From positions 744,001 through 808,000 of the forward strand of contig NZ_AP025518.1 in NCBI RefSeq assembly GCF_022179545.1: a stretch of DNA of 64,000 nt, read 5' to 3'. Made by a program: the position numbers and the translations under genes. The stretch comes from Mycolicibacterium fortuitum subsp. fortuitum. GTDB taxonomy: Bacteria; Actinomycetota; Actinomycetes; Mycobacteriales; Mycobacteriaceae. Of this stretch, positions 4,452 to 26,196 are shown piece by piece. A model generated the notes under the pieces. That model was not told the DNA's origin. It was given only the letters and a program-made list of their open reading frames with translations, and did no database searches. The first letter of the stretch is position 1. Each line of letters begins with the position of its first letter.

Positions 4452-4519
4452 GCTCCAAGGGCTGGTTTTCGAATGAACTCCCGGTTGATTTCCGGGTTGG
4501 AAGAGGTGGACTCCGCAGC

Positions 4520-6010: not shown

Positions 6011-6040
6011 CGAATTCGGGCTTCCCGTCGACATACAGGT

Positions 6041-7930
6041 ATGCGTGATTGCCTGGGGTTGTCCGTGGGGGCGACCAATCTGGTGGCGATCGCCGATCAT
6101 GCGCCGCTGGTGCGGCGGGCGGTGCTCACCGTGTCCGCGCACCACGGACCCGTGGTCGGCGCGCCGTCGTCGCCCGATGGCGGACTGGTGTTCAGCGATT
6201 TCGTGGGGCGGGTCGGCGACCCGGTGCCGCTGATCGCGGCCGACGGTTCGACGCACCATGCCGAGCGGTTGTTGGCCGGCGCGGTCGAGGCGCTGACGCG
6301 CGAGACGAGCCCGGCCCGCCGCCCCGACGTCTCGGTGCTCGCGGTACCTGCGCATTGGAATGCGGGCGCCCTGGCAGCTGTGCGCGGCGCGTTGCCCGGC
6401 GTCAGGGTGGTTCCCGATTCGGTCGCGGCGCTGACGGCCATCCAGGCTTATCCGGGATTGCCCGCACGCGGCGTCATCGCCCTCTGCGACTTCGGTGGAT
6501 CTGGCACCAGCCTGACACTAGCCGATGCCGGCGCGGGCTACGCCACCATCGGTCAGACGGTGCGCCACCCCGACTTCTCCGGCGATCTGATCGACCAGGA
6601 ATTGCTGCGACACGTGCTGAGCAATCTGGATGCCGAACCCGCAGGCACCGCAGCGGTCGCCGCTCTCGGCCAGCTGCGTGAACAGTGCCGCGCCGCCAAG
6701 GAACGGCTGAGCGATGAGGGCGCGACGAGTCTGAACGGGCCCGCCGGCGCGATCAGGCTGACCCGTGCCGAACTGGACGCGGTGGTGGACCAGCCGCTCG
6801 GGGGTGTGATCGAGGCGTTGCTGGACCTGATGCGCCGCAACGGGATTCACCCAGCACAGCTGGCTGCGCTGGTCACGATCGGCGGCGGAGCCCGGATACC
6901 GCTTGTCACTCAGCGACTTTCCGAAGCTTTCCGCATGCCGGTCACGACCGTTCCTCAGGCACAGGTGATCGCAGCTGTCGGGGCCGCGCTGCTGGGACGT
7001 CGCGGGGCCGACGACACCGCAACGCAGGTGGCATCTGCGCCTGCTCCCGGTCCCGTCTCGCAGACCGGGACTGTCGCAGCATCTGCACTGGCCTGGTCGG
7101 TCGAAGACTCGGTGGCCGAAGTCGCCGAGTTCATCCCCGCATCGGTGACCGACGATTCGGCCCGGCCCGAATTCGTTTTCTCCGAGCCGCCCGTGGCGCC
7201 CGCTCCGCCGCGGATCGCCTGGTACCGGCGCGGCGGTGTCGTGACCTACGCGGCGGTGTTCCTCGCCGTCGTCGGCACCGTCGGGATGGTGTTGTCGGCG
7301 CGGGCCGACCGCCTCGACGCCGCCGCGACCGGGTCAAGCCTTCTGGCGCCGCAGAATGTCCCGGCCGAGTCGCCGCTGGCCCAAGACGCGCCTGCGCCAC
7401 CGACCAGAACCGTGGTGGTCCGCGATCCGTCCTGGCCGGGTCCCGGCGCATCCGCTGCTCCGCGGCAAGCGGCCGCGCCATGGTTGGTGCAGAGTCGCCA
7501 GAGCGCACCGCTTGCCCCCGCCCCGCAACGGGTGGCTCCCGCACCGCGGGCTCCTCAGCCTCGACCGGCCGCCCCCGCACCCGCTCCGGTGCCTGTCCCT
7601 GTCCCCGTGCCTGCTGCGATCCCGGTGCCGCCGTTGGCTTTTCCGCCTGTGACGCTCCCGCAGTTGCCGGTGCCGACGTTCAAGCCGCCGGTGTCTGAGC
7701 CGTCACCTACGCCCACGCCCAGCCCTACGCCTACGCCTACGCAGGCGCCGAGTCCGACTCCCACGGCTTCGCCGGAGCCCACGCATACGCCGGAGCCCAC
7801 TCCGGAGCCGACTACGGAGCCGACGCAGGCGCCCGCGCCAACTCCGGAGCCCACTGCGGCGCCACAGCCCACCAAGGCGCCGGAGCCTACGCAGGCGCCG
7901 ACACCTACTTCAGCGGCGCCGACACCCTGA
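6041..7930 (+). CDS. Membrane-anchored Hsp70-like ATPase with Pro/Thr-rich tail
   Basis: The 629-residue product has an actin-like ATPase half: variant phosphate-1 loop LGLSVGATNL at the start, AVPAHWN, DFGGSGTSLTLAD (phosphate 2) near residue 149, and an adenosine-type IGGGARIPLV near 280. It lacks the DnaK substrate-binding domain. One transmembrane helix (about 398-420, TYAAVFLAVVGTVGMVL) follows, then roughly 200 residues rich in Pro, Ala and Thr with PTPTP and PEPT repeats, probably outside the membrane. It starts 30 bp after iniC, so it is likely co-transcribed with the dynamins. A paralog lies divergently at 1-365. A role as membrane partner of IniA/IniC is inferred from position only. 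Confidence 0.8.
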   Translation: MRDCLGLSVGATNLVAIADHAPLVRRAVLTVSAHHGPVVGAPSSPDGGLVFSDFVGRVGDPVPLIAADGSTHHAERLLAGAVEALTRETSPARRPDVSVLAVPAHWNAGALAAVRGALPGVRVVPDSVAALTAIQAYPGLPARGVIALCDFGGSGTSLTLADAGAGYATIGQTVRHPDFSGDLIDQELLRHVLSNLDAEPAGTAAVAALGQLREQCRAAKERLSDEGATSLNGPAGAIRLTRAELDAVVDQPLGGVIEALLDLMRRNGIHPAQLAALVTIGGGARIPLVTQRLSEAFRMPVTTVPQAQVIAAVGAALLGRRGADDTATQVASAPAPGPVSQTGTVAASALAWSVEDSVAEVAEFIPASVTDDSARPEFVFSEPPVAPAPPRIAWYRRGGVVTYAAVFLAVVGTVGMVLSARADRLDAAATGSSLLAPQNVPAESPLAQDAPAPPTRTVVVRDPSWPGPGASAAPRQAAAPWLVQSRQSAPLAPAPQRVAPAPRAPQPRPAAPAPAPVPVPVPVPAAIPVPPLAFPPVTLPQLPVPTFKPPVSEPSPTPTPSPTPTPTQAPSPTPTASPEPTHTPEPTPEPTTEPTQAPAPTPEPTAAPQPTKAPEPTQAPTPTSAAPTP

Positions 7931-8387: not shown

Positions 8388-9263
8388 TCACGCGGCCTGA
8401 CTGGCCGGTGCGGTCATAATCGCTTCGAATTCGATCGGGGTCAACCGCCCGAGTCCGGCTTGGCGTCGGCGGCGATGGTAGGTCCGTTCGATCCAGGTGA
8501 CGATCGCGATCCTCAACTCTTCTCGTGTGCTCCACCGGCGGCGATCGAGCACGTTCTTCTGGAGCAGCGCGAAGAAGCTCTCCATGGCTGCATTGTCGCC
8601 GGCCGCTCCGACACGGCCCATCGATCCAACCATCTCGTGATGGCCGAGCGCGTGCACGAATTTCCTTGACCTGAACTGAGATCCGCGATCAGAGTGCAGA
8701 ATGCAACCGGCCACATCACCGCGGCGTGCCACCGCGCTACTGAGCGCTGCAGCGGCCAGCCGGGACTTCATTCGAGAGTCGATCGAGTACCCGACGATGC
8801 GGTTGGAGAACACGTCCTTGATCGCACAAAGATAGAGCTTGCCCTCATCGGTGCGATGCTCGGTGATATCGCTGAGCCACAGCTGATTTGGACCACCAGC
8901 GGTGAAGTCGCGCTCGACAAGATCATCGTGCACCGGCGGGCCCACTTTGCCGTTCTTGCCGCGCTTCTTGCCGAACACGCTCCACCACCGGTTCTGCGAG
9001 CAGATCCGCCAACCAGTGCGCTGCGCCATCGGCTCGCCGGCATCGGATGCCTCTTCGACAAGGTAGCGGTAGCCGAACTCCGGGTCATCCTTGTGAGCAT
9101 CGAACAGGGCATTGGCGCGATACGCCTCGATGACCTCAGCGTCGGTGATGGGATTGGCCCGCCAGCGGTAGTAAGGCTGGCGGGCGAGCTTGAGTACCCG
9201 GCACGTCACCGCGACGGGGATCCCATCGGCGGCGAGCTCACTTACGAGCGGGTAGAGCCTTTT
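8388..9263 (-). CDS. IS3-family transposase OrfB (made by -1 frameshift from orfA)
   Basis: The DDE integrase domain is complete: WLSDITEH with YLCAIKDVFSNRIVGY, then LHSDRGSQFRS, then AMESFFALLQKNVLDRR carry the two Asp and the Glu. The frame is open upstream of the first in-frame GTG at 9209, back to an A-rich slippery site (GGGAAAAGG, 9258-9266). Moving back one base there turns LPGKGSTRS of OrfA into LPGKRLYPLVSEL, giving the usual OrfAB fusion transposase. A stand-alone protein from 9209 is also possible. Confidence 0.85.
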   Translation of the reverse strand, partial: KRLYPLVSELAADGIPVAVTCRVLKLARQPYYRWRANPITDAEVIEAYRANALFDAHKDDPEFGYRYLVEEASDAGEPMAQRTGWRICSQNRWWSVFGKKRGKNGKVGPPVHDDLVERDFTAGGPNQLWLSDITEHRTDEGKLYLCAIKDVFSNRIVGYSIDSRMKSRLAAAALSSAVARRGDVAGCILHSDRGSQFRSRKFVHALGHHEMVGSMGRVGAAGDNAAMESFFALLQKNVLDRRRWSTREELRIAIVTWIERTYHRRRRQAGLGRLTPIEFEAIMTAPASQAA

Positions 9264-9550
9264 CCCGGAAGGTTGGCCTGTGACAGATAGGCCGCAGCCC
9301 GGCGCAGCACTTCATTCTCCTGCTCGAGCAGCTTGATCCGACGCCGCGCATCCCGCAGCTCAGCGGACTCGCCAGTGCGCTTGCCCGGCTTGGCGCCCTC
9401 GTCGATATCGGCTTGGCGCATCCACTTGTGCAGCGTCACCGGGTGCACACCGAAATCAGTGGCGATCTGCTCGATCGTCACCCCGTCATCGCGGTCGCGG
9501 GCGACCCGGACGACATCGTCACGGAACTCGCGAGGGTAGGGCCTTGCCAT
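9242..9550 (-). CDS. IS3-family transposase OrfA
   Basis: The 102-residue protein starts at the ATG at 9550 (MARPYPREFRDDVVRVARDR). It has the IS3 HTH (IEQIATDFGVHPVTLHKWM) and a C-terminal leucine-zipper-like helix (RRRIKLLEQENEVLRRAAAYL). An in-frame start further upstream at 9601 would lie in the IS end and is less likely. The frame ends at 9242, just past the proposed slip site that leads into orfB. Confidence 0.88.
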   Translation of the reverse strand: MARPYPREFRDDVVRVARDRDDGVTIEQIATDFGVHPVTLHKWMRQADIDEGAKPGKRTGESAELRDARRRIKLLEQENEVLRRAAAYLSQANLPGKGSTRS

Positions 9551-9623
9551 GCTGACATCCTTCCAGCTCACCCACCCTGGGCAAGCCAACTCAGATGTCA
9601 CCTATCCGTGCAGCAGACCCATT

Positions 9624-10512
9624 CGGTGCCGTGCCTTCCCGCGCGTCGGTGTGGCGGATCCTGACCCGCCACGGGGTGATCGTCGCGCAACCGCAGAAGC
9701 GGCCGAAATCGGCCACCAAGCGCTTCACCTTCCGTCGCCCGAACGAGTGCTGGCAATCCGATTGGACCGGATGGGCACTGGCCGACGGGGCCCCGGCAGC
9801 AATCGCCGGCTCCCTCGACGACCACTCTCGTTATCTGGTCGGGCTACGGGCCGGCCCCGGTGATGGCACCAATGAGTTGGTGTGGTCGGTGATGGTGGCC
9901 GGGATGGCCGAATGTGGTGTTCCGGCAATGTCATTGGCCGACAACGGATTTGTCTACACCGGAAAATGGCGCGGGTTCGAATGTTCGTTTGAGGCCAACC
10001 TGCGGGCCCTGGGCACCGTCACGATCAACTCGCGCCCATTTCATCCGCAGACCTGCGGCAAGATCGAACGGCTATGGCAGACGCTCAAGAAGTGGCTGCG
10101 GGCCCGGCCCGCCCCGGCCACCATCGCCGAGCTCAACGATCTCCTCGACCAGTTCCGTGAGTTCTACAACCACCAACGGCCGCATCGCGCCTTGCACGGA
10201 GCCACTCCCGCCGAGGCGTTCGCCGCCACCGCCAAGGCCCGCCCCGCCGATCGAACCCTGGCCGCGCCGGTGCTGGTCACCCGCCACACCGTCACCAAGC
10301 ACGGATCCCTGTTCGTTGCGCCCTACCAGGTCCACGTCGGCGTGTGCTGGGCCGGCCACCTGTGCGACAGCGTCCGCGACGGCGAGCACATTGCCATCTT
10401 CAGCGGCGCCGTTCTGGTGCGGGAGCTCACCGCCAACCCGCGCAAGATCTATCAACCTGGCGACAAACGCATACGAACCCGCCGCACACCCGCACCCAAA
10501 CCGGCACCATGA
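9624..10512 (+). pseudogene. IS481-family transposase, C-terminal catalytic part
   Basis: This part carries the rve/DDE domain: NECWQSDWTGW, SLADNGFVYTG and CGKIERLWQTLKKWL contain the Asp, Asp and Glu. It ends with a lysine/arginine-rich tail. The reading frame is open back to an ATG at 9595 inside the IS3 end, so a truncated protein without the HTH could be made, but it would lack sequence-specific end binding. Together with 8051-8355 it forms the full transposase. Confidence 0.85.
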
Positions 10513-10599: not shown

Positions 10600-11535
10600 C
10601 TAGGCGGCGCGGTCGAGTCGATCGAACTCACAGCGAGGCCCGCATGGGTGGCCGGCCACCGCGATCCCGTGCTGCTGCAGCACCTGAGCGATCTTGCCTG
10701 CGGTCTGACAGGGCCGGTCGAAGACCTGCCCGTAGGAGAGCCTGACAGTGGAACGGCCATCGGCGGCGGCGTCGAGATCCCGTTCGAAATCCGCATCGCG
10801 CCGGGGCGTCGAATCATGGTGCACGCGGCCGTCGAGCTCGACGATGAGCCGTTCGCTGTACTCGGCATCGCGGTAGCAGACGCCGACGGAGGACTTGGCC
10901 CGCTTCTGTCGCGCGGCCTTGGGCAGACCATGCGGACGCTCGACGCGAACGAGATAGCCGTGCTCAAGGACCGAGCAGGTGCCGTCGGCGATATCGACCA
11001 GCACCCCGCGTAACCACCGGCGACGACGGACTCGAGCCCGTGAATCGAGCACTCGGAGCAGCCGATCTGCGGTGGTTCGCCGCGACTGGCAGGCGTTGGC
11101 CAGGACTGCAATGGCATCGAGTTCGGACACGGCGCGGCATGCGACGTCGATCGCGGCTTCGTCGTAACGCATCCGCGGTGGGCTGACGTTCCACAGGACT
11201 CGCTCGTGGAGGTTCACCAGATGGTGAATGCGAACTCCTGCCGGCTCAGCCAATATCGCGCGGTGTTGTGCGACGGCGACATGGATGGGCAACGCGTCGG
11301 CTCCGAGGGCGGAATCGAGGCACAGCGCTGCCGGGGCCGCGTAAAGCACTGCGGCCCAGGCGCGTTGCGACCACGTCAATGGTCCGGTGTGCTGGACGTA
11401 CACGCCCGTGTGCACCCGCGCCCACTCGTTACGCCTGAGCAACCGCCGAATCTCGTGGTCCCGCAGCCCGCCATCCAGCGCCTGGCTGCGGGAGATCACG
11501 CCGTCCTGTCGGCGAAGAAGCTCGTCAACGTCCAC
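10600..11535 (-). CDS. DUF559 / AbiEi-like domain protein
   Basis: The 311-residue product starts with a winged-helix-like segment (ELLRRQDGVISRSQALDGGLRDHEIRRLLRRNEWARVHTGVYV), the pattern of AbiEi-type N-terminal domains. It ends with a Vsr/DUF559-like nuclease fold: YSERLIVELDGRVHHDSTPRRDADFERD, where the E-x10-D layout is typical. Mycobacteria carry many such single proteins; whether this one is an antitoxin-like regulator or a nuclease cannot be told. No toxin partner lies next to it. It is convergent with the Hsp70-like gene across the IS insertion. Confidence 0.65.
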   Translation of the reverse strand: MDVDELLRRQDGVISRSQALDGGLRDHEIRRLLRRNEWARVHTGVYVQHTGPLTWSQRAWAAVLYAAPAALCLDSALGADALPIHVAVAQHRAILAEPAGVRIHHLVNLHERVLWNVSPPRMRYDEAAIDVACRAVSELDAIAVLANACQSRRTTADRLLRVLDSRARVRRRRWLRGVLVDIADGTCSVLEHGYLVRVERPHGLPKAARQKRAKSSVGVCYRDAEYSERLIVELDGRVHHDSTPRRDADFERDLDAAADGRSTVRLSYGQVFDRPCQTAGKIAQVLQQHGIAVAGHPCGPRCEFDRLDRAA

Positions 11536-12601: not shown

Positions 12602-13531
12602 TCAGCTCAGCTGACGGATGACTTCACCCGCGAAAAGCTCCAGATGATCCAGATCGGATTGGTCGAGCATTTGCAGGTAAACCCGCTGCACGCCCGCCTC
12701 ACGGAACGGGCCGAGCTTGTCGACGATCTCGGCAGGAGTGCCGACCAACGGCGAGTTGCTGCGCAGTTCCTCCACCTCGCGGTTGATGGCTGCGGCCCGC
12801 GCGGCGATCTGCGCTTCGTCGCTGCCCGCGCAGAGCACGAAGGCTGCCGAATAGGCCATGGAGTCGGTCGAGCGGCCTGCCGCGGCCACTGCGTCGGCTA
12901 CCCGGGTGAACTGCGTCTTCAGAGTGTCCAGCGGCACGAACGGCACGTTGAACTCCGAGGCGAACTCGGCGGCCAGCGCAGGTGTCCGCTTGGCGCCCTG
13001 GCCCCCGATGATGATCGGCAGATCCGACTGCGTCGGCTTGGGTAGCGCCGGGGAGTCGACGACGGTGTAGTGCTTGCCGGAGAAGTCGAAGGTCTGGCCA
13101 ACCGGTGTCTTCCACATTCCGGTGAGGATGCGCAGTTGCTCTTCGAGCCGGTCGAATCGCTCGCCGAGGGGTGGGAACGGGATGGCGTAAGCCTGGTGCT
13201 CTTCTTCGAACCAGCCTGCGCCGAGCCCCAATTCCACGCGGCCGCCGCTCATTTCGTCGACCTGAGCCACCGATATGGCCAGCGGACCCGGGTAGCGGAA
13301 GGTGGCCGAGGTGACCATGGTGCCCAGTCGGATCGTCGAAGTTTCGCGCGCGATGCCGGCCAGGGTCACCCAGGAGTCGGTGGGCCCGGGCAGGCCGTCG
13401 CCGCTCATCGCCAGGTAGTGGTCCGATCTGAAGAAGGCGGAGTAGCCGAGCGCTTCGGCGGCGCGGGCCACCGCGAGCTGATCGGAGTAGGTAGCACCTT
13501 GCTGGGGTTCGACGAACACACGGAAATCCAC
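12602..13531 (-). CDS. LLM-class F420-dependent oxidoreductase
   Basis: The 309-residue product begins at a GTG (VDFRVFVEPQQGATYSDQLAVARAAEALGY, split here as the luciferase-like first strand and helix). It carries the family landmarks SDHY, GTMVTSATFRYPGPLA and VELGLGAGWFEEEHQAYG-like residues around 110-125. Such proteins use F420H2 or FMN on unknown substrates. Longer in-frame starts to 13603 would overlap the upstream giant gene and lack family similarity. It follows that gene by 22 bp. Confidence 0.85.
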   Translation of the reverse strand: MDFRVFVEPQQGATYSDQLAVARAAEALGYSAFFRSDHYLAMSGDGLPGPTDSWVTLAGIARETSTIRLGTMVTSATFRYPGPLAISVAQVDEMSGGRVELGLGAGWFEEEHQAYAIPFPPLGERFDRLEEQLRILTGMWKTPVGQTFDFSGKHYTVVDSPALPKPTQSDLPIIIGGQGAKRTPALAAEFASEFNVPFVPLDTLKTQFTRVADAVAAAGRSTDSMAYSAAFVLCAGSDEAQIAARAAAINREVEELRSNSPLVGTPAEIVDKLGPFREAGVQRVYLQMLDQSDLDHLELFAGEVIRQLS

Positions 13532-13553
13532 GAACGCCAGCCTATCGGCGATC

Positions 13554-15990
13554 TCAAGTGGGCGGCTGCTGACTGAGTTCGTCGAAGCGGGCGAGCGCGG
13601 CATTCAGGTCGGACTCGTCGAAGACTTCGCCGAGCCTGATTCGGTCGCCTTCCACGGTCAAGATGCAAACGTCCCGCCACTCGGCATCGAATCCGTCGCG
13701 GGAGGTCGCTGACGCTACATGAGTGACAACTGTTCCGATATCACTCAGCTGATGCACGGCCTCTACATGGATAGTGGCTTGTGACGTGATGTCCCAGATC
13801 GCGTGGAGCGACGCTCCCATGTCACCCGCCTCGATTGTGACTAGTCGCCGATGATCGATATCGATCCAGTTTGCTGTGGCGGCAGGAAGCTCGTGCCGAT
13901 TGAGTGCGGCGTAAACGCCAGTGACTACGGACCAGGTGCGCGCATAGGCGGCGGCTTCACCGGCGAGGTAGCGGGCGTCGAGTTCAGCGAAGGCCGCGTC
14001 GACGTCGTCGGAGTCGAAGGTGACCACATCGGCGATGAGCCCCTGGCTGTCCAGGCCGATGATTTCGAGAATTTCCACGTGGAATCCTTCGACCTGTTCA
14101 TCGCGGTTCGCGTATCGGGAGCGCCTGAGCGCCAAGCGCTCACCGCGTATCGCGATGACGGTTGCCAATGTGTTCCTGACGTTGAGCTCAGCGACTGCAC
14201 GAGCGTCTTCGAGGGCGGCATCCCGACCGCGACGGATGCCGGTGCTTACGATGTGACGGCGGTCCTCGCTGCGGATGTCGTCAGCCAGCATGGTCGCCAT
14301 TGCATCCAGATCCGGTCGGATAAAACACTTCTGTAGGCGCTCGTACGCCCGGCTTGCCGCGTTCTCCAACCGCAGCACCGGGCGGCTGAGTTCATCGAAG
14401 CGGGCCAACGCGGCGTCGAGGTCGCTTTCGTCGAAGACCTCCAAGCTGCTCAGCTGCTCGCCATCGACGGTGAGGATGATGACGTCCCGCCACTCGGCAT
14501 CGAAGCCCTCGTGCGAAGTGCCATTCAGCACTTGGGTGAACAGCGCTCCTGAATCATTCAGCCGATGTACGGCCTCGATGTAGAGGTTGATGTCCGGCGC
14601 CACAGTCCACGTCGCCCGGATGTACGGGGTGATGTCGCCGGGCTGAAACGCGGTCGCGCGCCGGTGGTCGGTGGTTACCCAGCCCTGCGTCGTCTTCAAT
14701 GGCTCACGTCGGTTGAAAGCCGCGACATTGCCGGCGATGGCCGTCCAGGTCCGCCTGTGGTCGGCGGATTGACCGGCGAGGTACCGCGCATCTAGCTCGG
14801 CGATCGCGGCGTCGAGATCGTCGTGGTCGAATGTGACCGTCACTGCAATCCGATCGTCGCTGTCGACCTCGATCACATGCAGGAGATCGAGGCCGAATTC
14901 CTCAGGTGCTCCACCACCGAGCGAGAACCGGGCTCCTACGAGCACGACACGCTCGCCCCGGATCGCTATGGCGGTTGGTGCCTGTGTGGCGCCGAGATCA
15001 GCTGCAATCCGGAAGTTCTCGACGAACGAATCACGGCCGATCTGCAGATCGGCGTTGATCACCTGGCGGCGATCGTCGAACCTGATGTCGTCGGTCACCG
15101 CCTCTCCCATTGCGTCCCAGTCGCGGGCGGCGAATCGCTCCAGGAAACGATCGGTCGCTCGGCTTGCCGCGTTCTCCAGGCGGCGAACCGGCTGGCTGAG
15201 TTCGTCGAACTTGGCAAGCGCGGCATCGAGGTCCGACTCGTCGAAGATCTCGCAGCGGGTGACGAGCTCGCCCTCGACCATCATGATGTCCACGGCCCGC
15301 CACTCTGCGTCGAAGCCCTCGGATGACGTGCCCCAGGCGGAGCTCGCCACGACCGCTCCGGATCTCGTCAGCCGATACACCGCGGTGGGGTAGATGCGGA
15401 TGTCTGGCGTGTCCTGCCACGAGGCTTTGATGTAGGCGACCTGATCGCCGCTCGCGAAGCCTGTTCCGTGACGGTGGTCCATATTGACCCAGTCGGGCGA
15501 AATCGGGGGAACTACACGTTTGTTGAGTGCCGCGAACCCTTGCGCGACGACGGCCCATGTTTCGGAGTACGGTGCGGCTTCGCCGGCGAGATATCGAGCC
15601 TCGAGTTCAGCGAAGGCGGCATCGATGTCGTCGACATCGAATACGAAGCGGGTCGATACCTGGTTGTCGGAATTCACCTCGATGATCTCGAGAAGGTCGC
15701 TGTGGAAAGGCTCGGGTTGCCGGCTTGCCGCGGCTCGGCTGCGACACAAGACGAGGTTTCTGCCACGGGTCGCGATAACGTCTGACCGGACTTCTGCGAC
15801 TCCGACCTCAAAGATTGCCGAAATCTCTGCAATCACCGCATCGCGCCCCGCTCTGCGGCCGGCATTGACTACCCGGCGGCGATCCTCGGTTGAAATGTTC
15901 TCGGCGAGAACCCTTCGAATTGCTTCCCAGTCTCGGACAGCGTAGTTCGCGATGATGCCCCGATACACGTGGCTGGCGGCGTTCTCCAGC
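13554..15990 (-). repeat. Three tandem ~810-bp coding repeats
   Basis: Segments encoding ENAASR lie near 14357, 15167 and 15977, and segments encoding FDESDLDAALARFDELS lie near 13573, 14386 and 15196. Both series have a spacing of 810-813 bp, that is 270 codons. Between units the DNA stays similar in places (for example CTGAGTTCGTCGAA), but most positions have diverged, so the duplication is not recent. Confidence 0.8.
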
Positions 15991-18900
15991 TTCGACGTGT
16001 GCGTCCGCTCTTCTCCGGACCGGGCATACTGCGCCTCGAGTTCTGCTACGGCGGCATCCATGTCATCAAGGTCGAAGGACACTTGTACGGCGACAAGGCC
16101 TTCCTCGTTGAGTCCGACCACCTGAACGAACTCATCTAGTGGCGCTCCGGGGGCCGTGTCGTCCGTAGCGCTCGTGAGCAGGATCAGGGCATGGCGGTCG
16201 CCGCGTACGGCAAGAAACGTCGGCCGATGACGCACTATGCCCACTGCGGAGTAGTGCCTCATTCCGTCTGTCCATTCACGGGGTGAAAGTTCAGTGCGGA
16301 TGTAACCGACGATCTTGCGGTGGCTTTCGACGACGATGACGGGTGCAAGCAACGTCTCGGCTTCGTCCCATGCCTCGCGGTCGACCGCGCTGGTCAGCTT
16401 GTCCCCGATCCGCACGCACGGATGGTCCGGCTCAACGGCGCGATCTCCGGTTGCGGCTGGTGCACCAGTCGGCGATAGGCGCGATTGATTGCCGAGAAGA
16501 CCTTGAGCCTTTCCAGCAAGTGTTACAGCGCCTTTGCGCGCATAGAGATCGGCGGCGAGGTCGGCCGCTATCCTCGCTTCGGCTGCGGTGCCCGCGGCGG
16601 CCAGCACTGTCGCCAATGCCAAGCAGGCATCACCGTGATCGACCAGGGCGTCGGTACGTTCGGCGATGGCGACGGCTTCTTCGGCGACACGCCGCGCCCG
16701 ATCGTGCTCCCCGCTGTGCGAGAACAGCTGCGCCCGAGTCGTGCGCCACGCGATCGACGGTTTCAACGCGTGGCCGGCGAGCCGCTCGCTCTCGGAACAC
16801 AGTTCGTCTGCTTCGGCCTCGCGGCCCAGAAGGAGGCAGGCACGGGCCAAAAGCGCGGCTGTCTCCGCAGTGTCGGCGTCCAGGCCCATGCGGCGAAAAC
16901 CGTTGTAGGCGAGACGAAGATGCCGCTCTGCCGCGGCGGCATCGGCGAGGACCAGCTCCACGATGCCGGCAAAGTGCTCGACTTCGAGAAGTGCGTGGCG
17001 CAAGCCGAGCTCGGTGACAGTGCGCCGGGCGGAGTCGATCATCCGCCGTGCCGCGGCCGCCCGGCCTCGAAACGCTTCCAACACGGCTTGGCACCGGGTC
17101 GAGGTGGCCTCGACCGCCGGCGAATCGGTGGTGATCCGCAACAGACGCACTACATCAAGACAGCGGCCGCCCGCGCGCGGAACCGGGTTGGGTCCCCACA
17201 GCGCGGCCAGCGGAGCGCCTGCCAACACCGAATTGACCAATCGGTGCTCGTTTGCCTGGCGCGCTGCGGCCAGTGCGTGGTCCAATGCGACCTCACAGTC
17301 GGCGACCCGCCCGAGGCGTGCCAGACATCCCGCTCGAACCGTGTGTGCTTTGGCCTCCCCCGCGGCGTCGCCCAATTCGGCCAGTGTCGCTGCGGCGGCG
17401 GCTACTGCGGATTCGATCTCGTTCAGGCGCTCGGGGTCGACAAGCATGGACAGTTCGCCATCGAAACATGTCGCCCACGCTGCGACTCGGGCTGAATTGC
17501 GTGTTCCTTCCTTCAGTTCCGCCACTGCACCGGCCGCCGACGACACATCGCCCGCGGCCAGCAATGCCTCACACCGCGCCACGAGAAGTTCGACCCGCTG
17601 GCCGTCGCGGTCTGGCAGTTCGTCGTCCACGTCCTCCAGCGCGTGCAACGCGTGACCGTAAAGGTCGGCGGCTCCCTCGTATGCCAGTCGCACCATTGCC
17701 TGGTCTGCGGCACGCCGGGAGTACTCGACAGCCTTGACCGCGTTTCCCGCCCAAGCACATTCGAAGTAGTGGTGGGCCAACTCGGCCAGAAGCTCGTCAT
17801 CGGCGCCCGGCATCGTCTCCAAAGTGGTGGCGATCCGTTGGTGCAGGCGCATGCGCCGGACAGACGCCAGTTCGGCGAGCAGCGACTGCCGGACGATGGC
17901 ATGGTTGAACCGGTACCAGCCGCCGGGCTCCTCGACGAGGATGCCGACCTGGCTGGCTTCGTCGAACCCGTCGACCAGGTCTTGGCCCACCACTTGCTCA
18001 ACCAGGTCGAGGGCGAACCGGCTGCCCACAACCGCGGCTGCCGCCAGCGCCTTGTTGGTCTCAGCCGGGAGCCTGGAAAGTCTGCGGCTCACGGCTTCCC
18101 GAACTCCCTGAGGCAGGGTGCTCGGATCCCAATGCCCGCCGCTCTCGTCTACGTGGCGCAATGCCTCGATGAGGAAGAACGGATTGCCCCCGGTGACCGA
18201 GGCCAACGCGCGGGCCAGCTCTTCGTCGTCGTATCCGGCCTCGGCCACGTACGCACTGACGTCCTCCTCATCGAGGCCGCCCAGCGCAATACGATTGGCG
18301 CTGCCGTCGCGGTGAAGGTCGGCCAGCATCGCCGCCAAGGGATGCGAGCGGTCGAGGTCGGTGCTGCGGTACGTGCCGACAATCTGCACGCGGGCGTGCT
18401 CGCCGAACCGCAGAAGGTGGCGCAGCAGAAGCAGTGTGGGCTTGGCCGCCCAGTGGAGGTCATCGAGCACGAGGACGATGGGCGCCTCTGCCGAGGCGAT
18501 GCCGAGCAAGGCCACGACCGCGTCGAACAGTGCGTATCGTTCGGTGTCAGGATCACCGCGAGGTGGCGCGGCGAGATCGGGCAGGACATCGGCCAGTCCT
18601 GGAACCAGTGGCAGTAGCGCCTCGACGCCGCGCGTCCCGCGCAGTCGGCTGCTACCGAGACAGGGGACGAGTGCGCGCAGCGCTTCGGCGAACGGCTGGT
18701 ACGGCGCGCCGAGGTCCTCGTCAGAACGACCGTAGAGCACCACCGCGCCCTGCTCGTGAGCCTGCCTGCACCACTCGCCGGCCAGGCGGGTCTTTCCGAC
18801 GCCTGGTTCGCCGGCGATCAGCACCGCGCGGGTGCCGGCGATGACTGTCTGATGCCAGTCGGAGAGCAGCTCTGCCAGTTCGCGGCTGCGCCCGACAAAA

Positions 18901-20291
18901 GGGCCGGGCCCCGCGAGCACCGCCGGTACCCCGGGCCGCTCGATCGGCGTATCACCGCTCGGCAGTGGGGCATCGGCGGTTTGCAGACGGAGTTCGAAAG
19001 TGTGCTCGGGGCGTGCCAGGTTCTTCAGCTGCCGCATGCCCAGATCGAGGAGGGCGACGTCGTCGGACAGGGAGTCGATCACCAGCTCGGCGGTCGCACC
19101 AGAGCACAGGATCTGTCCGCCACAGGCCTGCGAACGCAGGCGGGCGGCACGGTTGACGGCGCGTCCGAAGTAGTCGCCATCACGAAGCTCCGCCTCGCCG
19201 GTATGCAATGCCACCCGGATACGCATGGGCTCGGCCAGCGGCCAAGGCTCGTGAGAGATCGCGTCCTGCAACTCGATCGCGGCGGCGGCAGCAGCTGACG
19301 GCCGGTCGAACACCGAGAAGGTGGCGTCGCCCTCGCCTCGAGTCTTGATCAGGCGGCCGCCGCGGGACGTGATGACCTGTTCGACGACTTCGTCGTGCCG
19401 GGCGAGCGCCACGGCCATGGCGTCGGCATCAGCTTCCCAGGCGGCTGTGGAGCCTTCGATGTCGGTCAGCAGGAACGTCACGGCCCGGGTGACGGACGGA
19501 ACATGTTGTGCCGCAGGGATGTCGAGCTCAGGATCCTGAGCGACGATCGCGGCTTCCAGTCGACGGAGTTCGGGGCCCGGGTCGACGCCGAGCTCGTCGG
19601 CCAACAGTGACCGGGCTCGCCGGTAGGCTCCGAGCGCCTCACCCTGCCGACCGGCGCGGTACAGCGCGAGCATGAGTTGGCCCCAACGCCTCTCGCGCAG
19701 CGGTGCGTCCGCCACCGCGGCCTCGAGGTCGCCGATGATCTCCGCGGCACGGCCAGTTGCCAGGAGTGCATCGGCCCGGTCCTCGACCAGTGCCGAGTGG
19801 GCCTCGATCCACCGGGTCTTCTCAGACATACCCCGCCGACTGTCGGGCAGTTCAGGGATCCCACGCCACAGGGCAGCCGCCTCGTCGAACCGGATGAGCG
19901 CAGCGCTGGTGTCGCCGGCGCCCAGGGCATCGCGGCCCAATTTGGTGAGGGACTGATGGCGCGCGGCATCGGTCTCGGCGGTGTTCAGGCGCCAGCCGGT
20001 GCCCTCGGTCAACACGAAGCCGTCGCCGAGCGTGTGGCGCAGCGAGGAGATGTGAGTCTGCAGGGCCTTGGCCGCGGTGCGTGGCGGATCGTCGCCCCAC
20101 AGCAACTCCATGAGCACGTCGGCCGGTACCACCGCACCCCCGTGGAGGCCGAGCATTGTCAGGATGGCGCGCGGCTTGGCGCCCGGTATCGCGACGGGCG
20201 CTCCGTCCATACGGACCTGAAGAGGTCCCAAAACCTCCAGTTCCACCGATGAAAGCGTACCCACGCGCCAATCGTCGAGGTGACGATTCAA
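13554..20291 (-). CDS. Giant BTAD / adenylate cyclase / AAA-ATPase / TPR regulator with seven SnoaL-like modules
   Basis: The product has about 2245 residues. In order: an OmpR-like winged helix (about 17-95, ELEVLGPLQVRMDG), a BTAD domain (about 100-255), a class III nucleotide cyclase domain (about 270-440, FLLTDIEGST and TRGEGDATFSVF), an AAA/STAND ATPase (Walker [15 protein letters not shown] near 494, Walker B VLVLDDLHWA near 609), a TPR region to about 1280, and then seven SnoaL/NTF2-like modules. The first is a lone diverged module (about 1290-1430); the rest are three tandem 270-residue units of two modules each. The open frame begins at a TTG; GTG codons at 20264 or 20246 are more likely starts. 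No LuxR-type HTH is seen at the end. DNA binding through the N-terminal domain is inferred from the SARP family. Confidence 0.85.
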   Translation of the reverse strand: MNRHLDDWRVGTLSSVELEVLGPLQVRMDGAPVAIPGAKPRAILTMLGLHGGAVVPADVLMELLWGDDPPRTAAKALQTHISSLRHTLGDGFVLTEGTGWRLNTAETDAARHQSLTKLGRDALGAGDTSAALIRFDEAAALWRGIPELPDSRRGMSEKTRWIEAHSALVEDRADALLATGRAAEIIGDLEAAVADAPLRERRWGQLMLALYRAGRQGEALGAYRRARSLLADELGVDPGPELRRLEAAIVAQDPELDIPAAQHVPSVTRAVTFLLTDIEGSTAAWEADADAMAVALARHDEVVEQVITSRGGRLIKTRGEGDATFSVFDRPSAAAAAAIELQDAISHEPWPLAEPMRIRVALHTGEAELRDGDYFGRAVNRAARLRSQACGGQILCSGATAELVIDSLSDDVALLDLGMRQLKNLARPEHTFELRLQTADAPLPSGDTPIERPGVPAVLAGPGPFVGRSRELAELLSDWHQTVIAGTRAVLIAGEPGVGKTRLAGEWCRQAHEQGAVVLYGRSDEDLGAPYQPFAEALRALVPCLGSSRLRGTRGVEALLPLVPGLADVLPDLAAPPRGDPDTERYALFDAVVALLGIASAEAPIVLVLDDLHWAAKPTLLLLRHLLRFGEHARVQIVGTYRSTDLDRSHPLAAMLADLHRDGSANRIALGGLDEEDVSAYVAEAGYDDEELARALASVTGGNPFFLIEALRHVDESGGHWDPSTLPQGVREAVSRRLSRLPAETNKALAAAAVVGSRFALDLVEQVVGQDLVDGFDEASQVGILVEEPGGWYRFNHAIVRQSLLAELASVRRMRLHQRIATTLETMPGADDELLAELAHHYFECAWAGNAVKAVEYSRRAADQAMVRLAYEGAADLYGHALHALEDVDDELPDRDGQRVELLVARCEALLAAGDVSSAAGAVAELKEGTRNSARVAAWATCFDGELSMLVDPERLNEIESAVAAAAATLAELGDAAGEAKAHTVRAGCLARLGRVADCEVALDHALAAARQANEHRLVNSVLAGAPLAALWGPNPVPRAGGRCLDVVRLLRITTDSPAVEATSTRCQAVLEAFRGRAAAARRMIDSARRTVTELGLRHALLEVEHFAGIVELVLADAAAAERHLRLAYNGFRRMGLDADTAETAALLARACLLLGREAEADELCSESERLAGHALKPSIAWRTTRAQLFSHSGEHDRARRVAEEAVAIAERTDALVDHGDACLALATVLAAAGTAAEARIAADLAADLYARKGAVTLAGKAQGLLGNQSRLSPTGAPAATGDRAVEPDHPCVRIGDKLTSAVDREAWDEAETLLAPVIVVESHRKIVGYIRTELSPREWTDGMRHYSAVGIVRHRPTFLAVRGDRHALILLTSATDDTAPGAPLDEFVQVVGLNEEGLVAVQVSFDLDDMDAAVAELEAQYARSGEERTHTSKLENAASHVYRGIIANYAVRDWEAIRRVLAENISTEDRRRVVNAGRRAGRDAVIAEISAIFEVGVAEVRSDVIATRGRNLVLCRSRAAASRQPEPFHSDLLEIIEVNSDNQVSTRFVFDVDDIDAAFAELEARYLAGEAAPYSETWAVVAQGFAALNKRVVPPISPDWVNMDHRHGTGFASGDQVAYIKASWQDTPDIRIYPTAVYRLTRSGAVVASSAWGTSSEGFDAEWRAVDIMMVEGELVTRCEIFDESDLDAALAKFDELSQPVRRLENAASRATDRFLERFAARDWDAMGEAVTDDIRFDDRRQVINADLQIGRDSFVENFRIAADLGATQAPTAIAIRGERVVLVGARFSLGGGAPEEFGLDLLHVIEVDSDDRIAVTVTFDHDDLDAAIAELDARYLAGQSADHRRTWTAIAGNVAAFNRREPLKTTQGWVTTDHRRATAFQPGDITPYIRATWTVAPDINLYIEAVHRLNDSGALFTQVLNGTSHEGFDAEWRDVIILTVDGEQLSSLEVFDESDLDAALARFDELSRPVLRLENAASRAYERLQKCFIRPDLDAMATMLADDIRSEDRRHIVSTGIRRGRDAALEDARAVAELNVRNTLATVIAIRGERLALRRSRYANRDEQVEGFHVEILEIIGLDSQGLIADVVTFDSDDVDAAFAELDARYLAGEAAAYARTWSVVTGVYAALNRHELPAATANWIDIDHRRLVTIEAGDMGASLHAIWDITSQATIHVEAVHQLSDIGTVVTHVASATSRDGFDAEWRDVCILTVEGDRIRLGEVFDESDLNAALARFDELSQQPPT

Positions 20292-20333: not shown

Positions 20334-20957
20334 TTACAGGCCGCGGTGGGCCGCGCGCAGCGCGGCCACGGCGGCGTCGTCTCCAGAGAACGTGACGCGG
20401 GCCGGCTCCCGGCCTGCGGCGAACAACAACAGCTCGCCGGGCTCGCCCGTCACCGTCACCTCCGGGCCGGAGCCGACGGTGGCCAGGGTCTTGCCCGCCG
20501 GGGTGGTCAACGCCACCCGCGCCGGGGATTTGCCCATCGACATTCGTGCCATCGCACCAATGCCGCGGGACAGTGCGGAAACCGTCGCACCATCGAGTTC
20601 CCTTGGCTCCCACTCAGGTTGCGCGCGACGGACGTCCTCGTTGTGGATGAACATCTCGGCCACATTCACCAGCGGGTCGAGCAACTTGAACGGCGAGTAC
20701 AGCGGAGGGCCCGCCGCGATCTGATCGACCAGGTCGTCCCACTCGGTGCTGTCGGTGACCTGCTTCTGCACCCGCTCGGTGTAGCCGGCGAGCTGAGGCA
20801 CCAGGATGCCCGGGGCGGCATCAAGGCGACGCTCCCGCACCACCAGGTGGGCAGCCAGGTCACGGGTGGTCCAGCCCTCACAGAGGGTGGGTGCATCCGG
20901 TCCTGCGGCACGCATGGACTCGACCAGGGCGGCACGTTCGCGCCGAGCGACAGTCAC
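20334..20957 (-). CDS. TIGR03085-type, DinB-like metal-binding protein
   Basis: The 207-residue product has the mycothiol-dependent maleylpyruvate isomerase N-terminal pattern: RRERAALVESMRAAGPDAPTLCEGW, then RDLAAHLVVRERR with one metal-ligand His, then NVAEMFIHNEDVRRA with the other His. The C-terminal part resembles the small domain found in these proteins. The substrate is unknown. It stands alone between the giant regulator and the LpqJ-like gene, both on the same strand. Confidence 0.75.
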   Translation of the reverse strand: MTVARRERAALVESMRAAGPDAPTLCEGWTTRDLAAHLVVRERRLDAAPGILVPQLAGYTERVQKQVTDSTEWDDLVDQIAAGPPLYSPFKLLDPLVNVAEMFIHNEDVRRAQPEWEPRELDGATVSALSRGIGAMARMSMGKSPARVALTTPAGKTLATVGSGPEVTVTGEPGELLLFAAGREPARVTFSGDDAAVAALRAAHRGL

Positions 20958-22983: not shown

Positions 22984-24600
22984 TCAGGCTGTGAGAAACA
23001 TGGTTCGGAGTTCGGATTTTTTGAATTTGCCGGTGGCAGTGCAGGGCAGCGCTTCGACGAATTCGAATCGGTCCGGTAACTGCCACTTGGCGAAATCCTG
23101 TGCGAGGTGGTCGCGCAGCGCTTGGGCGGAGGCGTGGCCACCGTCCGCAAGCACGACCACGGCCAGCGGGCGTTCGCCCCACCGCTCGTCGGGCACAGCG
23201 ATCACGGCCGCCTGTGCGACGGCGGGATGCGACATTAGCTGGTTCTCCAGGTCGACCGAGGAGATCCACTCGCCGCCGGACTTCACCAAATCCTTTGAAC
23301 GGTCGCAGATTCGGATACATCCGTGCGGATCGATGCGCACCACATCGCCGGTCCTGAACCAGCCGTCAGCGGTGAAACTGTCCGTTCCGCGGCCACCGTG
23401 GTAGCTACCCGCCACCCAGGGGCCGCGCACTTCGAGTTCGCCCATGGCGGCGTCGTCCCAGACGATGAGATCACCGTTATCGTCACGGCCCCGGATGTCG
23501 AAGAACGGGCTCGCGACACCCTGGCGCATGCGGTACCCGTACTGTTCGTCGCGCTCGCCCGCGTCGAGATGCGCAGGAGTGCGGCAGACCGCGCCAAGAG
23601 GAGCGGTCTCGGTCATTCCCCAGGCCTGCACCACGGTCAGCCCGTGGCGGTCGAACCCTTCGAACATCGAGCGCGGCACCGCCGCTCCTCCGACGACCAA
23701 CCGGTCGAGCTCGGACAAATTCCACTTCTCGGGGGCCGCATCGAGTGTGGCGAGCATGCCCATCCACACCGTCGGTACACCCGCCGTCATCGTGACCTGC
23801 TCGCGGGCGCACAGGTCGAGGACACTCTCGGGGTCAAGGCGCGGGCCCGGCAGGACCAGGCGAGCGCCGGCCAGGGCGGCGGCGTAGGGCAGGCCCCACG
23901 CATTGGCGTGAAACATCGGGACGACGGGAAGGACTGTGTCCCTGGACGATACGGACAGCTGGTCGGGCAGGGCGGCGACCAGCGAGTGCAGGGCCAGTGC
24001 TCGGTGCGAGTACACGACACCTTTGGGGCGGCCGGTGGTGCCCGAGGTGTAACACATGGCGGCGGCGCGCTGTTCGTCGAGCGCGGGCCAGACCATTGGC
24101 TCGGCACCGGCGATCAGAGCTTCGTAATCGAGCGTTCCCGCTGGGGCGGCCCCATCGTGGGTGACGACGATGACGTGGTGGAAATCGTGCCGAGCACCGA
24201 AAGTTTCGAATACGTCCAGCAGGGACTCATCGACGATGATCACTCTGTCGTCGGCGTCGTCGACGATGAACGCCAACTCGTCGGGGAACAGTCGGGGGTT
24301 GAGGGTGTGGATGACCGCACCCATGGCCGGCACCGCGAAGTACGCTTCGAGGTGTTCGCTCTGGTTCCACAGCAGGGTGGCCACCGGATCACCCTCACCG
24401 ACGCCCAAGGCGCTCAGCGCACCTGCAAGACGCCTCGCGCGGGCCGCGCATTCGCCAAAGGTGGTGCGCGTGACCGCACCCGAAGGCCGGCGCGACACCA
24501 CGTCCACGTCGGAATGGAACCGCCCGGCGCGCTCCACAACGCTGGTCAGGGTGAGCGGATAGTCGTCCATGCTGTTGCTGCCCAACACGTTTACGGTCAT
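22984..24600 (-). CDS. Long-chain fatty-acid-CoA ligase / acyl-AMP ligase
   Basis: The 538-residue product is a full ANL-family enzyme: P-loop-like YTSGTTGRPKGVVYSH near residue 190, WGMTETAPLG near 320, and the hinge and C-terminal motifs GWFRTGDVV, DRSKDLVKSGGEWIS and TATGKFKKSELR with the catalytic Lys. It activates a carboxylic acid with ATP and CoA. Its ATG overlaps the stop of the upstream WS/DGAT frame (ATGA), showing translational coupling. The substrate is likely a fatty or branched acid destined for acyl transfer. Confidence 0.88.
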   Translation of the reverse strand: MTVNVLGSNSMDDYPLTLTSVVERAGRFHSDVDVVSRRPSGAVTRTTFGECAARARRLAGALSALGVGEGDPVATLLWNQSEHLEAYFAVPAMGAVIHTLNPRLFPDELAFIVDDADDRVIIVDESLLDVFETFGARHDFHHVIVVTHDGAAPAGTLDYEALIAGAEPMVWPALDEQRAAAMCYTSGTTGRPKGVVYSHRALALHSLVAALPDQLSVSSRDTVLPVVPMFHANAWGLPYAAALAGARLVLPGPRLDPESVLDLCAREQVTMTAGVPTVWMGMLATLDAAPEKWNLSELDRLVVGGAAVPRSMFEGFDRHGLTVVQAWGMTETAPLGAVCRTPAHLDAGERDEQYGYRMRQGVASPFFDIRGRDDNGDLIVWDDAAMGELEVRGPWVAGSYHGGRGTDSFTADGWFRTGDVVRIDPHGCIRICDRSKDLVKSGGEWISSVDLENQLMSHPAVAQAAVIAVPDERWGERPLAVVVLADGGHASAQALRDHLAQDFAKWQLPDRFEFVEALPCTATGKFKKSELRTMFLTA

Positions 24601-26081
24601 GACTTCGCCTTCATCCGGCTCACGGTGCGGACGGCGTTCTGCAGCTCTTCCAAGCCGTCACCGAGGGCGGACAGGATCGGCCACGGGTCGTCGACCAACT
24701 CACGGTCGACGACGATGCCGAACTCGAGGGAATCCTGATAGCTCATGACGGTGATGTTGATGCCGATCCCGTCGAGCACCCCGGAGACCGGGAACTGGGC
24801 GCGCTGTTTGACCCCGCCGAGGTACAGCGGCGTGGCCGGGCCGGGGACATTCGAGATCATGGCGTTCGCAGGCTGATTGAGGCCGCGCACCCCGGCCAGT
24901 CGAGACAGCGACCGAGCGGCCTGGGCGAACAAGGCAGGCGGGATGAAGTGATTGGCGTCTTGCAGCAGTGAGGCCGGCAGCGCGCGCTGCCGTTCCTTGG
25001 CGGCGTTCATCGCTTTGTTGATCCGGCGCACCCGCTCGACGGGATCGGCCTCATCGGTGGGCAGCTGGGTGAGCATCACCGACACCCGGTTACCGAAGGT
25101 GCCCTGCTGCTCGGGAGTGCGCACCGACATTGGGATGAAACTCGCGAGAGGTTCGGCGGGCAGCTCGCCCTGCTTGTCGAGCCAGGACCGCAGACCCGCC
25201 GTGCAGATTGCCAGCACGACATCGTTGACGGTGCAGCCGAGGGCGTTCTTTATCGCTTTGACCTCGGCCAGCGGCATCGAGCCGAATGCGACGCGGCGGT
25301 GCGGTGACACCCGCGCCTGGAACCGGGTCCGGGGAGCGGTGACGTCGCTGCCCCGCAGCGCGGTCACAGGACTGCCGGCTTTCAAGGCGCGCTTGACGAG
25401 CCGGCTGCTGCGGGCGAGGGCCTTCACTCCGGGCAAGTGCCGGATGGTGGGAACGTCGTCGAGGTGCGGCAGTGCCGTGGGGCCGGCCCGCAGCACCCGC
25501 AGCGGCTGGCTCGCCAGCCCGACCAGACCGCGACCCAGCATCTCCACCTCGGAGGGGTACTTCTCCGCCACGATCGTGGGTGCCGCTTCACGTTAACGCC
25601 CGGTCGTGTCGTCGAGGAGGATGCTCATGACCTCGACGCCGGACACCCCGTCGACCGCGGCGTGGTGCATCTTCGTCAACACCGCGACGCCGCCGTCTTC
25701 GAGTCCGTGGATGACGTACACCTCCCAGAGCGGGCGGGCCCGGTCGAGCTGACGGCCGATGATCCGGGCCACCTGCTCGGCGAGCTGGCGCTGGTCGCCC
25801 GGTGCGGGCAGGGCCAGCTCGCGGACGTGGTACTCGATGTCGAACGAGCCGTCGTCGACCCAGTACGGGTAGTCCAGCGAGAAGGGCACCTGGGCCAGCC
25901 GCCAGCGGAAGGTGGGCAGCAGGTGCAGGCGTTCGCTGATGACTCCGCGAACGAGGGCGGCATCGAGCGGCTCGCCCGATGCGGTGTGGGAGTCGTAGAT
26001 GCCGAGAACACTGACGTGCCCCTGGACACGGTCGTTCTCCATGGCCAGGAACTGCGCGTCGAGGCTGGTCAGTTGTCGCAT
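24597..26081 (-). pseudogene. WS/DGAT acyltransferase, broken by one in-frame stop
   Basis: The protein reads as a wax ester synthase/diacylglycerol acyltransferase. The N-terminal part (MRQLTSLDAQFLAMEN) carries the catalytic HHAAVDG near residue 139. A TAA codon at 25593-25595 follows LDDTTGR, and the same frame continues as REAAPTIVAEKYPSEVEML and on through the normal C-terminal domain (NVPGPATPLYLGG) to 24597. The total of about 490 codons is the family length. A second protein could start at the GTG at 25571 but would lack the active site. The gene is the first of an operon with the acyl-CoA ligase and the SnoaL gene. It may be a real nonsense mutation or a sequencing error. Confidence 0.82.
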
Positions 26082-26196
26082 GTGAAGATCGTCTGTCAGC
26101 GGGGCCGGCATTCTCTTGTCTGCGGGCGCCAACGCTGCGGCCGGTCGTTGTTCAATTTGCCTACCGTGGGCCGGGGACGGCGCTACCGTGCACTGC

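Follow-up and report, generated by a model that had tools for sequence, protein, structure and literature searches.

What is a bacterial regulator for when it joins a SARP region, a nucleotide cyclase domain, a STAND-type ATPase and seven NTF2-like units in a single chain? The question is raised by a minus-strand open reading frame (13554-20291; 2245 open codons counted from a TTG) in a stretch of 64,000 nucleotides, hereafter the window. The initial annotation took the encoded protein for a single odd regulator, whose repeated modules might form a multivalent ligand sensor. Its relatives show that it belongs to a large Mycobacterium family, and the more telling feature, invisible from one sequence, is a cassette-like exchange of units between strains. 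The anatomy and the cassette-like evolution of the array are well supported. As for its function, ligand sensing would be the most likely one, the main rival being a protein-recognising receptor of immunity or kin recognition.

The gene is present as one full copy in the genome (whole-genome search; 6.41 Mb, one contig). Its predicted start is more likely GTG 20264 than TTG 20291, because homologues (for example P0012) begin at codon 10 of the window protein. The domain order is SARP (winged helix plus BTAD), class III cyclase, AAA_16, TPR-like region and SnoaL/NTF2 tail (Table 1).

Table 1. The giant gene, its parts and its surroundings (positions in the window)
Feature	Residues	Position	Strand	Basis or remark
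Two dynamin-family GTPases, then Hsp70-like protein		2595-7930	+	
Two integrase-core (rve) frames, IS-like		8388-10512	both	opposite strands; near giant gene
AbiEi-type antitoxin-like frame		10600-11535	-	about 2 kb downstream; 84-87% in six fortuitum-group loci
Luciferase-like oxidoreductase, downstream		12602-13603	-	frame overlaps end of giant gene; retained in fortuitum-group loci
Whole giant gene		13554-20264	-	GTG start likely; frame open from TTG 20291; stop 13554-13556
SARP: OmpR-type winged helix and BTAD	14-262	19506-20252	-	Pfam; conserved columns
Class III nucleotide cyclase domain	263-445	18957-19505	-	Pfam; PDB Ma1120; conservation
STAND-type AAA/NOD	455-760	18012-18929	-	AAA_16; conservation in 82 sequences
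TPR-like helical region	900-1284	16440-17594	-	homology to sister-protein stretches matching TPR_12
N0, first NTF2-fold unit	1285-1432	15996-16439	-	A-like, diverged
Unit A1	1433-1572	15576-15995	-	
Unit B1	1573-1702	15186-15575	-	
Unit A2	1703-1842	14766-15185	-	also in structure model
Unit B2	1843-1972	14376-14765	-	also in structure model
62-bp stretch, inter-module helix	codons 1951-1971	14380-14441	-	two blastn pieces against L041 overlap
Unit A3	1973-2112	13956-14375	-	
Unit B3	2113-2245	13557-13955	-	
MDMPI-like gene, upstream of giant gene		20334-20957	-	retained in fortuitum-group loci
WS/DGAT wax-ester synthase homologue		24597-26198	-	divided between two neighbouring frames (N terminus in 25593-26198, C terminus in 24597-25571)

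Most of the architecture first proposed for the protein was borne out: the BTAD, cyclase and AAA domains by Pfam, and the seven NTF2/SnoaL units by shuffle-tested alignments. At the N terminus, BTAD covers residues 107-249 (1.2e-35, 123.4 bits against a cut-off of 22.1) and Trans_reg_C residues 39-90 (29.3 bits against 26.2), with conserved columns taken from 75 aligned sequences, the window's included. An OmpR-type winged helix followed by BTAD is the combination that defines the AfsR/SARP family; the NCBIfam AfsR equivalog model scores 150.9 bits, under its cut-off of 1430. Guanylate_cyc matches residues 269-403 (2.5e-8, 34.1 bits against 21.9), and the domain matches PDB Ma1120 at 1.6e-19. 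Residues D277, K316, D373, N380 and R384 occur in all of the 75-76 sequences compared, including the window's, while the second metal position is Glu320, not Asp, in 74 of 75. For these positions we assume the residue roles of this domain to be two metal Asp, substrate Lys/Asp and transition-state Asn/Arg. The predicted cyclase may possibly serve as a second output, against which counts the Glu320 at its metal site.

The third block carries AAA_16 (residues 464-636; 8.3e-27, 95.1 bits against 32.6), with the Walker A motif GEPGVGKT at 494-501 and the Walker B Asp at 610-611, both motifs being more than 97% conserved in 82 sequences, the window's among them. A P-loop AAA/NOD with both Walker motifs, followed by a TPR-like region and the array, is the layout of a STAND protein. 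The TPR assignment of the initial annotation stands in part: Pfam calls no TPR in the window protein, and the region is called TPR-like because homologous stretches of sister proteins match TPR_12, one of the two above its cut-off.

The array itself consists of N0 and three A-B pairs. With 200 shuffles for each alignment, A units join A units at z 38-45, B units join B units at z 50-63 and N0 joins A units at z 17-20; alignments across types are weaker (A-B z 2.0-6.5, N0-B z 1.2-3.5). SnoaL_2 exceeds its Pfam cut-off (5.5e-10, best stretch 1714-1816), and a weak SnoaL match at 1981-2039 lies below its own. The A2-B2 pair is modelled (pLDDT 95.5, pTM 0.90) as two ketosteroid-isomerase (KSI)/NTF2 folds, with the predicted cone-shaped alpha+beta form of the NTF2/SnoaL class, and its fold matches are KSI, NTF2 and epoxide hydrolase. 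The claim of SnoaL-like modules is thereby upheld and an alternative fold excluded. By sequence, the same pair finds chance-level matches only in the PDB (0.12-0.13), and a unit profile reaches mhKSI at E 0.16. The placing of modules in a model of the 961-aa array was left uninterpreted because its pTM is 0.50.

How widespread is such a protein? Searched with the front half, the genus gives matches at 1e-200 in 163 of 396 genomes, the window's genome included (159 of the 361 of good quality); with the array as query, 68 of 148 genomes match at 1e-10. The search of the order gave 20 of 298 genomes and one of 76 genera, that of the phylum 4 of 346 genomes and 2 of 218 genera. The nearest named relative is M. 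senegalense, at 95% over SARP-cyclase in a search that may omit records very near the window's genome. In 74 full-length relatives, the front half is 76-97% identical to the window's. The architecture that the initial annotation proposed to look for in actinobacteria is thus that of a large Mycobacterium family; outside this family, the search met a sister type with a zinc ribbon. In L172, from another actinobacterial class, and L161, a divergent protein of Mycobacterium, a zinc ribbon stands in the place of the SARP, followed by the cyclase, AAA, TPR-like region and NTF2 units; the TPR region of L161/L172 matches at 9e-101 and 4e-121, and nine of 120 L172 relatives among the matches listed combine zinc-ribbon and SnoaL domains. 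These proteins (also P0226 and others) share the order of cyclase, AAA, TPR and NTF2 array with the giant regulator, but they have GDG in the cyclase where the SARP-type family has GEG, and their unit order is less regular.

Protein length in the family varies by whole units. Among the 150 matches listed from the front-half search of the genus, frames measure 1300-7523 aa (median 3044.5), the short ones possibly stopping at contig ends, and lengths are quantised at 135 aa, that is, one unit (phase coherence 0.61 versus at most 0.28 in 300 smoothed controls). The longest frame, 7523 aa, holds 46 units, and two others hold 29 and 23. Units of about 135 aa are mostly arranged in A-B pairs of about 270 aa, with a module period mostly of 268-272 aa. 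Of 226 full-length proteins that carry three units or more, 160 follow A(AB)k exactly, the rest having extra, missing or unclassified units. Some relatives (G340, G300, G319; G076, G022 and others) contain in-frame stops within the matching part, which reflect gene decay or sequencing error. Some genomes have two giant genes (L055/L068, L047/L067), in one case on one contig with the front halves about 24 kb apart. Proteins of the mycobacterial type also appear under Kofleriaceae and Candidatus Sericytochromatia metagenome bins (P0003, P0217), perhaps from mis-binned contigs. Names given so far by the sources are 'BTAD domain-containing putative transcriptional regulator', 'regulator' and 'class 3 adenylate cyclase'.

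The way in which arrays differ was examined in 130 pairs, drawn from 226 proteins, whose front halves are at least 97.5% identical. Of 1379 matched units, 1299 are at least 80% identical and 80 at most 65% identical, with none in between, the low-identity matches arising where the ordered alignment pairs whatever occupies the gap. Counted as distinct unit pairs, the figures are 311, 53 and 0. Differences were seen in 44 of the 130 pairs (31 by swaps, 27 by indels); the pairs are not independent and fall into 13 clusters, of which 10 show swaps and 11 indels, and cluster 10 hinges on the short P0192 (1721 aa), with doubtful unit matching, without which 43 of 129 pairs differ. Only one of 1170 core blocks, adjoining the array, falls below 80%; such evenness is expected and provides no independent control, since the pairs were selected by front-half identity. 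What is informative is that no unit falls in the middle of the identity distribution and that the borders are sharp.

Single pairs make this concrete. The M. avium proteins P0283 and P0303, whose front halves are 98-99% identical, agree at 96-99% in all units but 1, 3 and 5, which are 50, 57 and 48% identical; the units of M. septicum P0122 and P0125 agree at 91-99%, except for three out of 14, which are at 49-57%. Where two pairs were followed in 20-residue steps, the transitions between high and low identity sit about one step or less from the unit borders, the first drop in P0283/P0303 starting slightly ahead of the first unit. M. avium P0263 has one B-A pair more than P0283, M. setense P0152 is one module longer than P0153, and two A units, 78 and 83% identical, have exchanged positions between P0125 and P0140, whose front halves are 95% identical. 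The window gene itself differs from that of M. senegalense (L041) by 807 bp, or one module, and the inter-module helix encoded by the 62-bp overlap is conserved.

Where do replacing units come from? Among the best 25 replaced units by outside match, 22 have a match of at least 90% in another cluster, 18 of the 25 at the same position, and the fifth unit of P0303 is 89.6% identical to that of P0084 from M. intracellulare, although the front halves are only 84% identical. Since the outside partners are mostly close relatives (front halves mostly 92-97%), the replacing units could equally be long-shared alleles or the result of recent transfer. Homogenisation of repeats within proteins was rejected: modules have a mean identity of 49.5% to their neighbour in the same protein and of 49.3% between proteins (mid modules), and a single module pair exceeds 80% in 75 proteins, the window's included. 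First units omitted, 2740 units make up 1557 types at 80% identity (1410 A units give 804 and 1330 B units 753), and rarefaction is far from flat. When single-member types are set aside, 89 of the 151 remaining A types and 101 of the 172 remaining B types occupy more than one position.

Inside units, variation differs between the two faces of the sheet. In 993 non-redundant A units, sheet positions 83, 85, 87, 99, 101, 103, 116 and 118 have a mean entropy of 3.34 bits and the alternating positions 1.29, and in 933 B units the two faces average 2.80 and 1.13, the faces having been picked after the entropies were seen (A by pKSI numbering, B by alternation itself). The high-entropy A face coincides with what we take to be the pocket numbers of pKSI; the 15 presumed pocket positions average 2.61 versus 1.92 (permutation P 0.004, a descriptive value). 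The variable face is probably the pocket side, a placing that rests on weak KSI alignments (hhalign prob 5.9, covering A10-60 only), their extension by eye and our assumed pocket list. An Asp-x-Arg pair is near-invariant: Asp38 in 939 and Arg40 in 984 of the 993 A units, Asp173 in 911 and Arg175 in 913 of the 933 B units. In 69 orthologous units at least 80% identical (22 independent pairs), dN/dS is 0.217, compared to 0.101 for the core, and equals 0.162 on both the variable and the opposite sheet face. Point-diversifying selection at the pocket was thus not seen in this sample, which counts against reading the array as a sensor. Within a unit type evolution is conservative, and novelty arises by unit replacement.

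The surroundings of the gene change from clade to clade. No operon partner is conserved across clades: the MDMPI-like and luciferase-like genes are found only in fortuitum-group loci. Elsewhere, a GAF-SpoIIE-HATPase protein adjoins the giant gene divergently at 13 loci, with a median gap of 79 bp (for example L060 7200-9914, minus strand), and an NlpC/P60-like gene lies upstream at 13 (73 of 80 named loci having a frame). That neighbours differ between clades counts against the sensor-array reading as well. The dynamin-family pair in the window, with the Hsp70-like protein after it, is suggestive of the ini dynamin genes. An origin from phages or plasmids was rejected: 100 pattern matches in viral contigs confirmed no array relative, phage records gave none, and the 745 matching plasmid records are all less than 60% identical and never cover as much as 80% of the query; the 20 of them that were listed stop by residue 908, ahead of the array.

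The best reading of these data is a strain-variable combinatorial sensor array that would gate a STAND switch whose outputs would be transcription and possibly cyclase activity; the predicted anatomy and the variability of one sheet face agree with the proposal that a multivalent ligand sensor is coupled to a STAND ATPase and a nucleotide cyclase. On balance, we lean towards a large cytosolic SARP regulator of STAND type with the C-terminal NTF2 array as its sensor. In AfsR, a large SARP of Streptomyces, the NOD-TPR part inhibits the SARP and ATP relieves this inhibition, according to the available text of the source (PMC10936776), and we infer that the same logic may apply to the giant regulator, extended by the array as a sensor. 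The array would sit on the TPR-like scaffold and sense, the AAA/NOD would be the ATP-driven switch, and the SARP, perhaps with the class III cyclase, would provide the outputs. Units presumably share their scaffold and the Asp-x-Arg pair and differ in pocket lining, and would therefore bind different ligands. Binding at one or more units would relieve autoinhibition and let ATP load the NOD, which in turn would switch on SARP-dependent transcription and/or cyclic nucleotide synthesis. Homologous recombination through the conserved inter-unit sequence could swap units between strains, so that each strain would acquire its own detection repertoire. Small hydrophobic ligands are modestly favoured over protein ligands because of the unit fold. 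More tentatively, the whole may be a receptor family in which exchangeable pocket-bearing NTF2 units, up to 46 per chain, offer strain-specific combinatorial repertoires to one conserved STAND switch that acts through transcription and cyclic nucleotide. It is conceivable, with the same reserve, that such a family serves as a chemosensor or an immune receptor of the repertoire type, diversified through swaps of whole domains.

A receptor for immunity or kin recognition is the alternative that survives best, and we hold it to be unlikely yet well worth keeping in view. The array would then bind proteins (of phage, or non-self), and the STAND part with the cyclase or SARP would trigger defence, as in fungal NLRs. 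The exchange of units and the variable repeat number next to a STAND core do resemble the repeats of those proteins (PMC4986451), and STAND proteins with variable C-terminal sensors counter phage (PMC10907252), as far as the available parts of both sources go. The patchy presence of the family and the AbiEi-type frame close to six fortuitum-group genes would also suit defence. NTF2 folds are usually pockets for small molecules, however, and the pocket probably lies on the variable side of the sheet. The outputs of the protein look regulatory, GAF-SpoIIE and NlpC/P60-like proteins are the neighbours identified in two other clades, PADLOC reports only mad8 (17.2 bits, E 7e-4), and the viral and phage searches confirmed no array relatives; all of these weigh against defence.

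That the units are, or once were, enzymes (epoxide hydrolase, isomerase or cyclase-like) in a catalytic or scavenging tail, their variation being a change of substrate, appears improbable. The top two-domain fold matches are indeed polyether epoxide hydrolases, Lsd19 (1.6e-11) and MonBI-MonBII (2.2e-11), but the Lsd19-type overlay has a TM of 0.42 and an rmsd of 12.7 A across both domains; the A-B pair therefore appears to be arranged differently from the epoxide hydrolases. Similarly, Asp38 aligns with Asp40, which we take, with Tyr16 and Asp103, for the key residues of KSI (pKSI numbering), Asp40 being the catalytic base. The position matched to Tyr16 is F, L or Y, and that matched by eye to Asp103 is highly variable, so the units were rejected as ketosteroid isomerases. 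Moreover, a fusion to STAND and TPR suits sensing better than catalysis. Equally improbable is a neutral turnover of repeats, in which a permissive tail would acquire and shed units to little functional effect: it would agree with a unit dN/dS about twice that of the core, with the in-frame stops of some relatives, with the varying unit number and with the lack of point-diversifying selection, but dN/dS is far under 1, scaffold residues are near-invariant and frames stay open over as many as 46 units.

The sensor-array reading can be placed among systems already described. The available text of the open-access literature searched holds no description of this architecture, of its unit swapping or of its role; the corresponding parts of a 2004 cyclase survey (PMC2447327) give no account of the architecture, and those of PMC7159879 do not mention SnoaL and name NTF2 once, for another system. 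AfsR is the nearest known system in architecture, with an N-terminal SARP followed by NOD and TPR; its published layout, in the text available, has neither the cyclase between SARP and NOD nor the NTF2 array, both of which are present here (PMC10936776). ECF41 and ECF56 sigma factors, as described in the parts available, also carry a C-terminal regulatory extension on a transcription factor, SnoaL_2 in the case of ECF56 (PMC3426412, PMC7730460), but it is a single extension on a sigma factor, with neither a STAND switch nor an array.

In evolutionary mode, the nearest systems by analogy would be the shuffled-repeat NLRs of fungi and the DGR-diversified STAND sensors of multicellular bacteria. 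In the latter, a STAND NTPase carries a hypervariable sensor at its C terminus (PMC10907252); in the text available, their sensors are C-type-lectin folds mutated by reverse transcriptase, whereas the NTF2 units of the giant regulator are replaced whole. Fungal NLRs (HET-D/E/R and NWD, with WD, ANK or TPR repeats) have a STAND core and a C-terminal array whose repeats differ in number and are shuffled among alleles (PMC4986451), and the mycobacterial arrays likewise show repeat-number polymorphism and unit exchange between alleles, the mode of a shuffled-repeat receptor. According to the available parts of the same source, fungal repeats are about 85% alike within a protein and have positively selected binding sites, and their fold and effectors are unlike those of the giant regulator; here repeats are about 49% alike and no such selection was seen. 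Since high repeat identity and positive selection are lacking, the giant regulator is similar in mode to fungal NLRs and not one of them.

The pattern is familiar from receptors that need to keep changing the targets they recognise. The finding makes testable the question of what these bacteria must recognise so variably; natural alleles that differ unit by unit can be used for binding assays, and very large proteins that bear generic names only are given a meaning. Shuffled repeats on STAND switches are known from self/non-self recognition in fungi, and a like signature is now found in a widespread mycobacterial regulator, whose repeats have another fold and whose output would be transcription, perhaps together with a cyclase.
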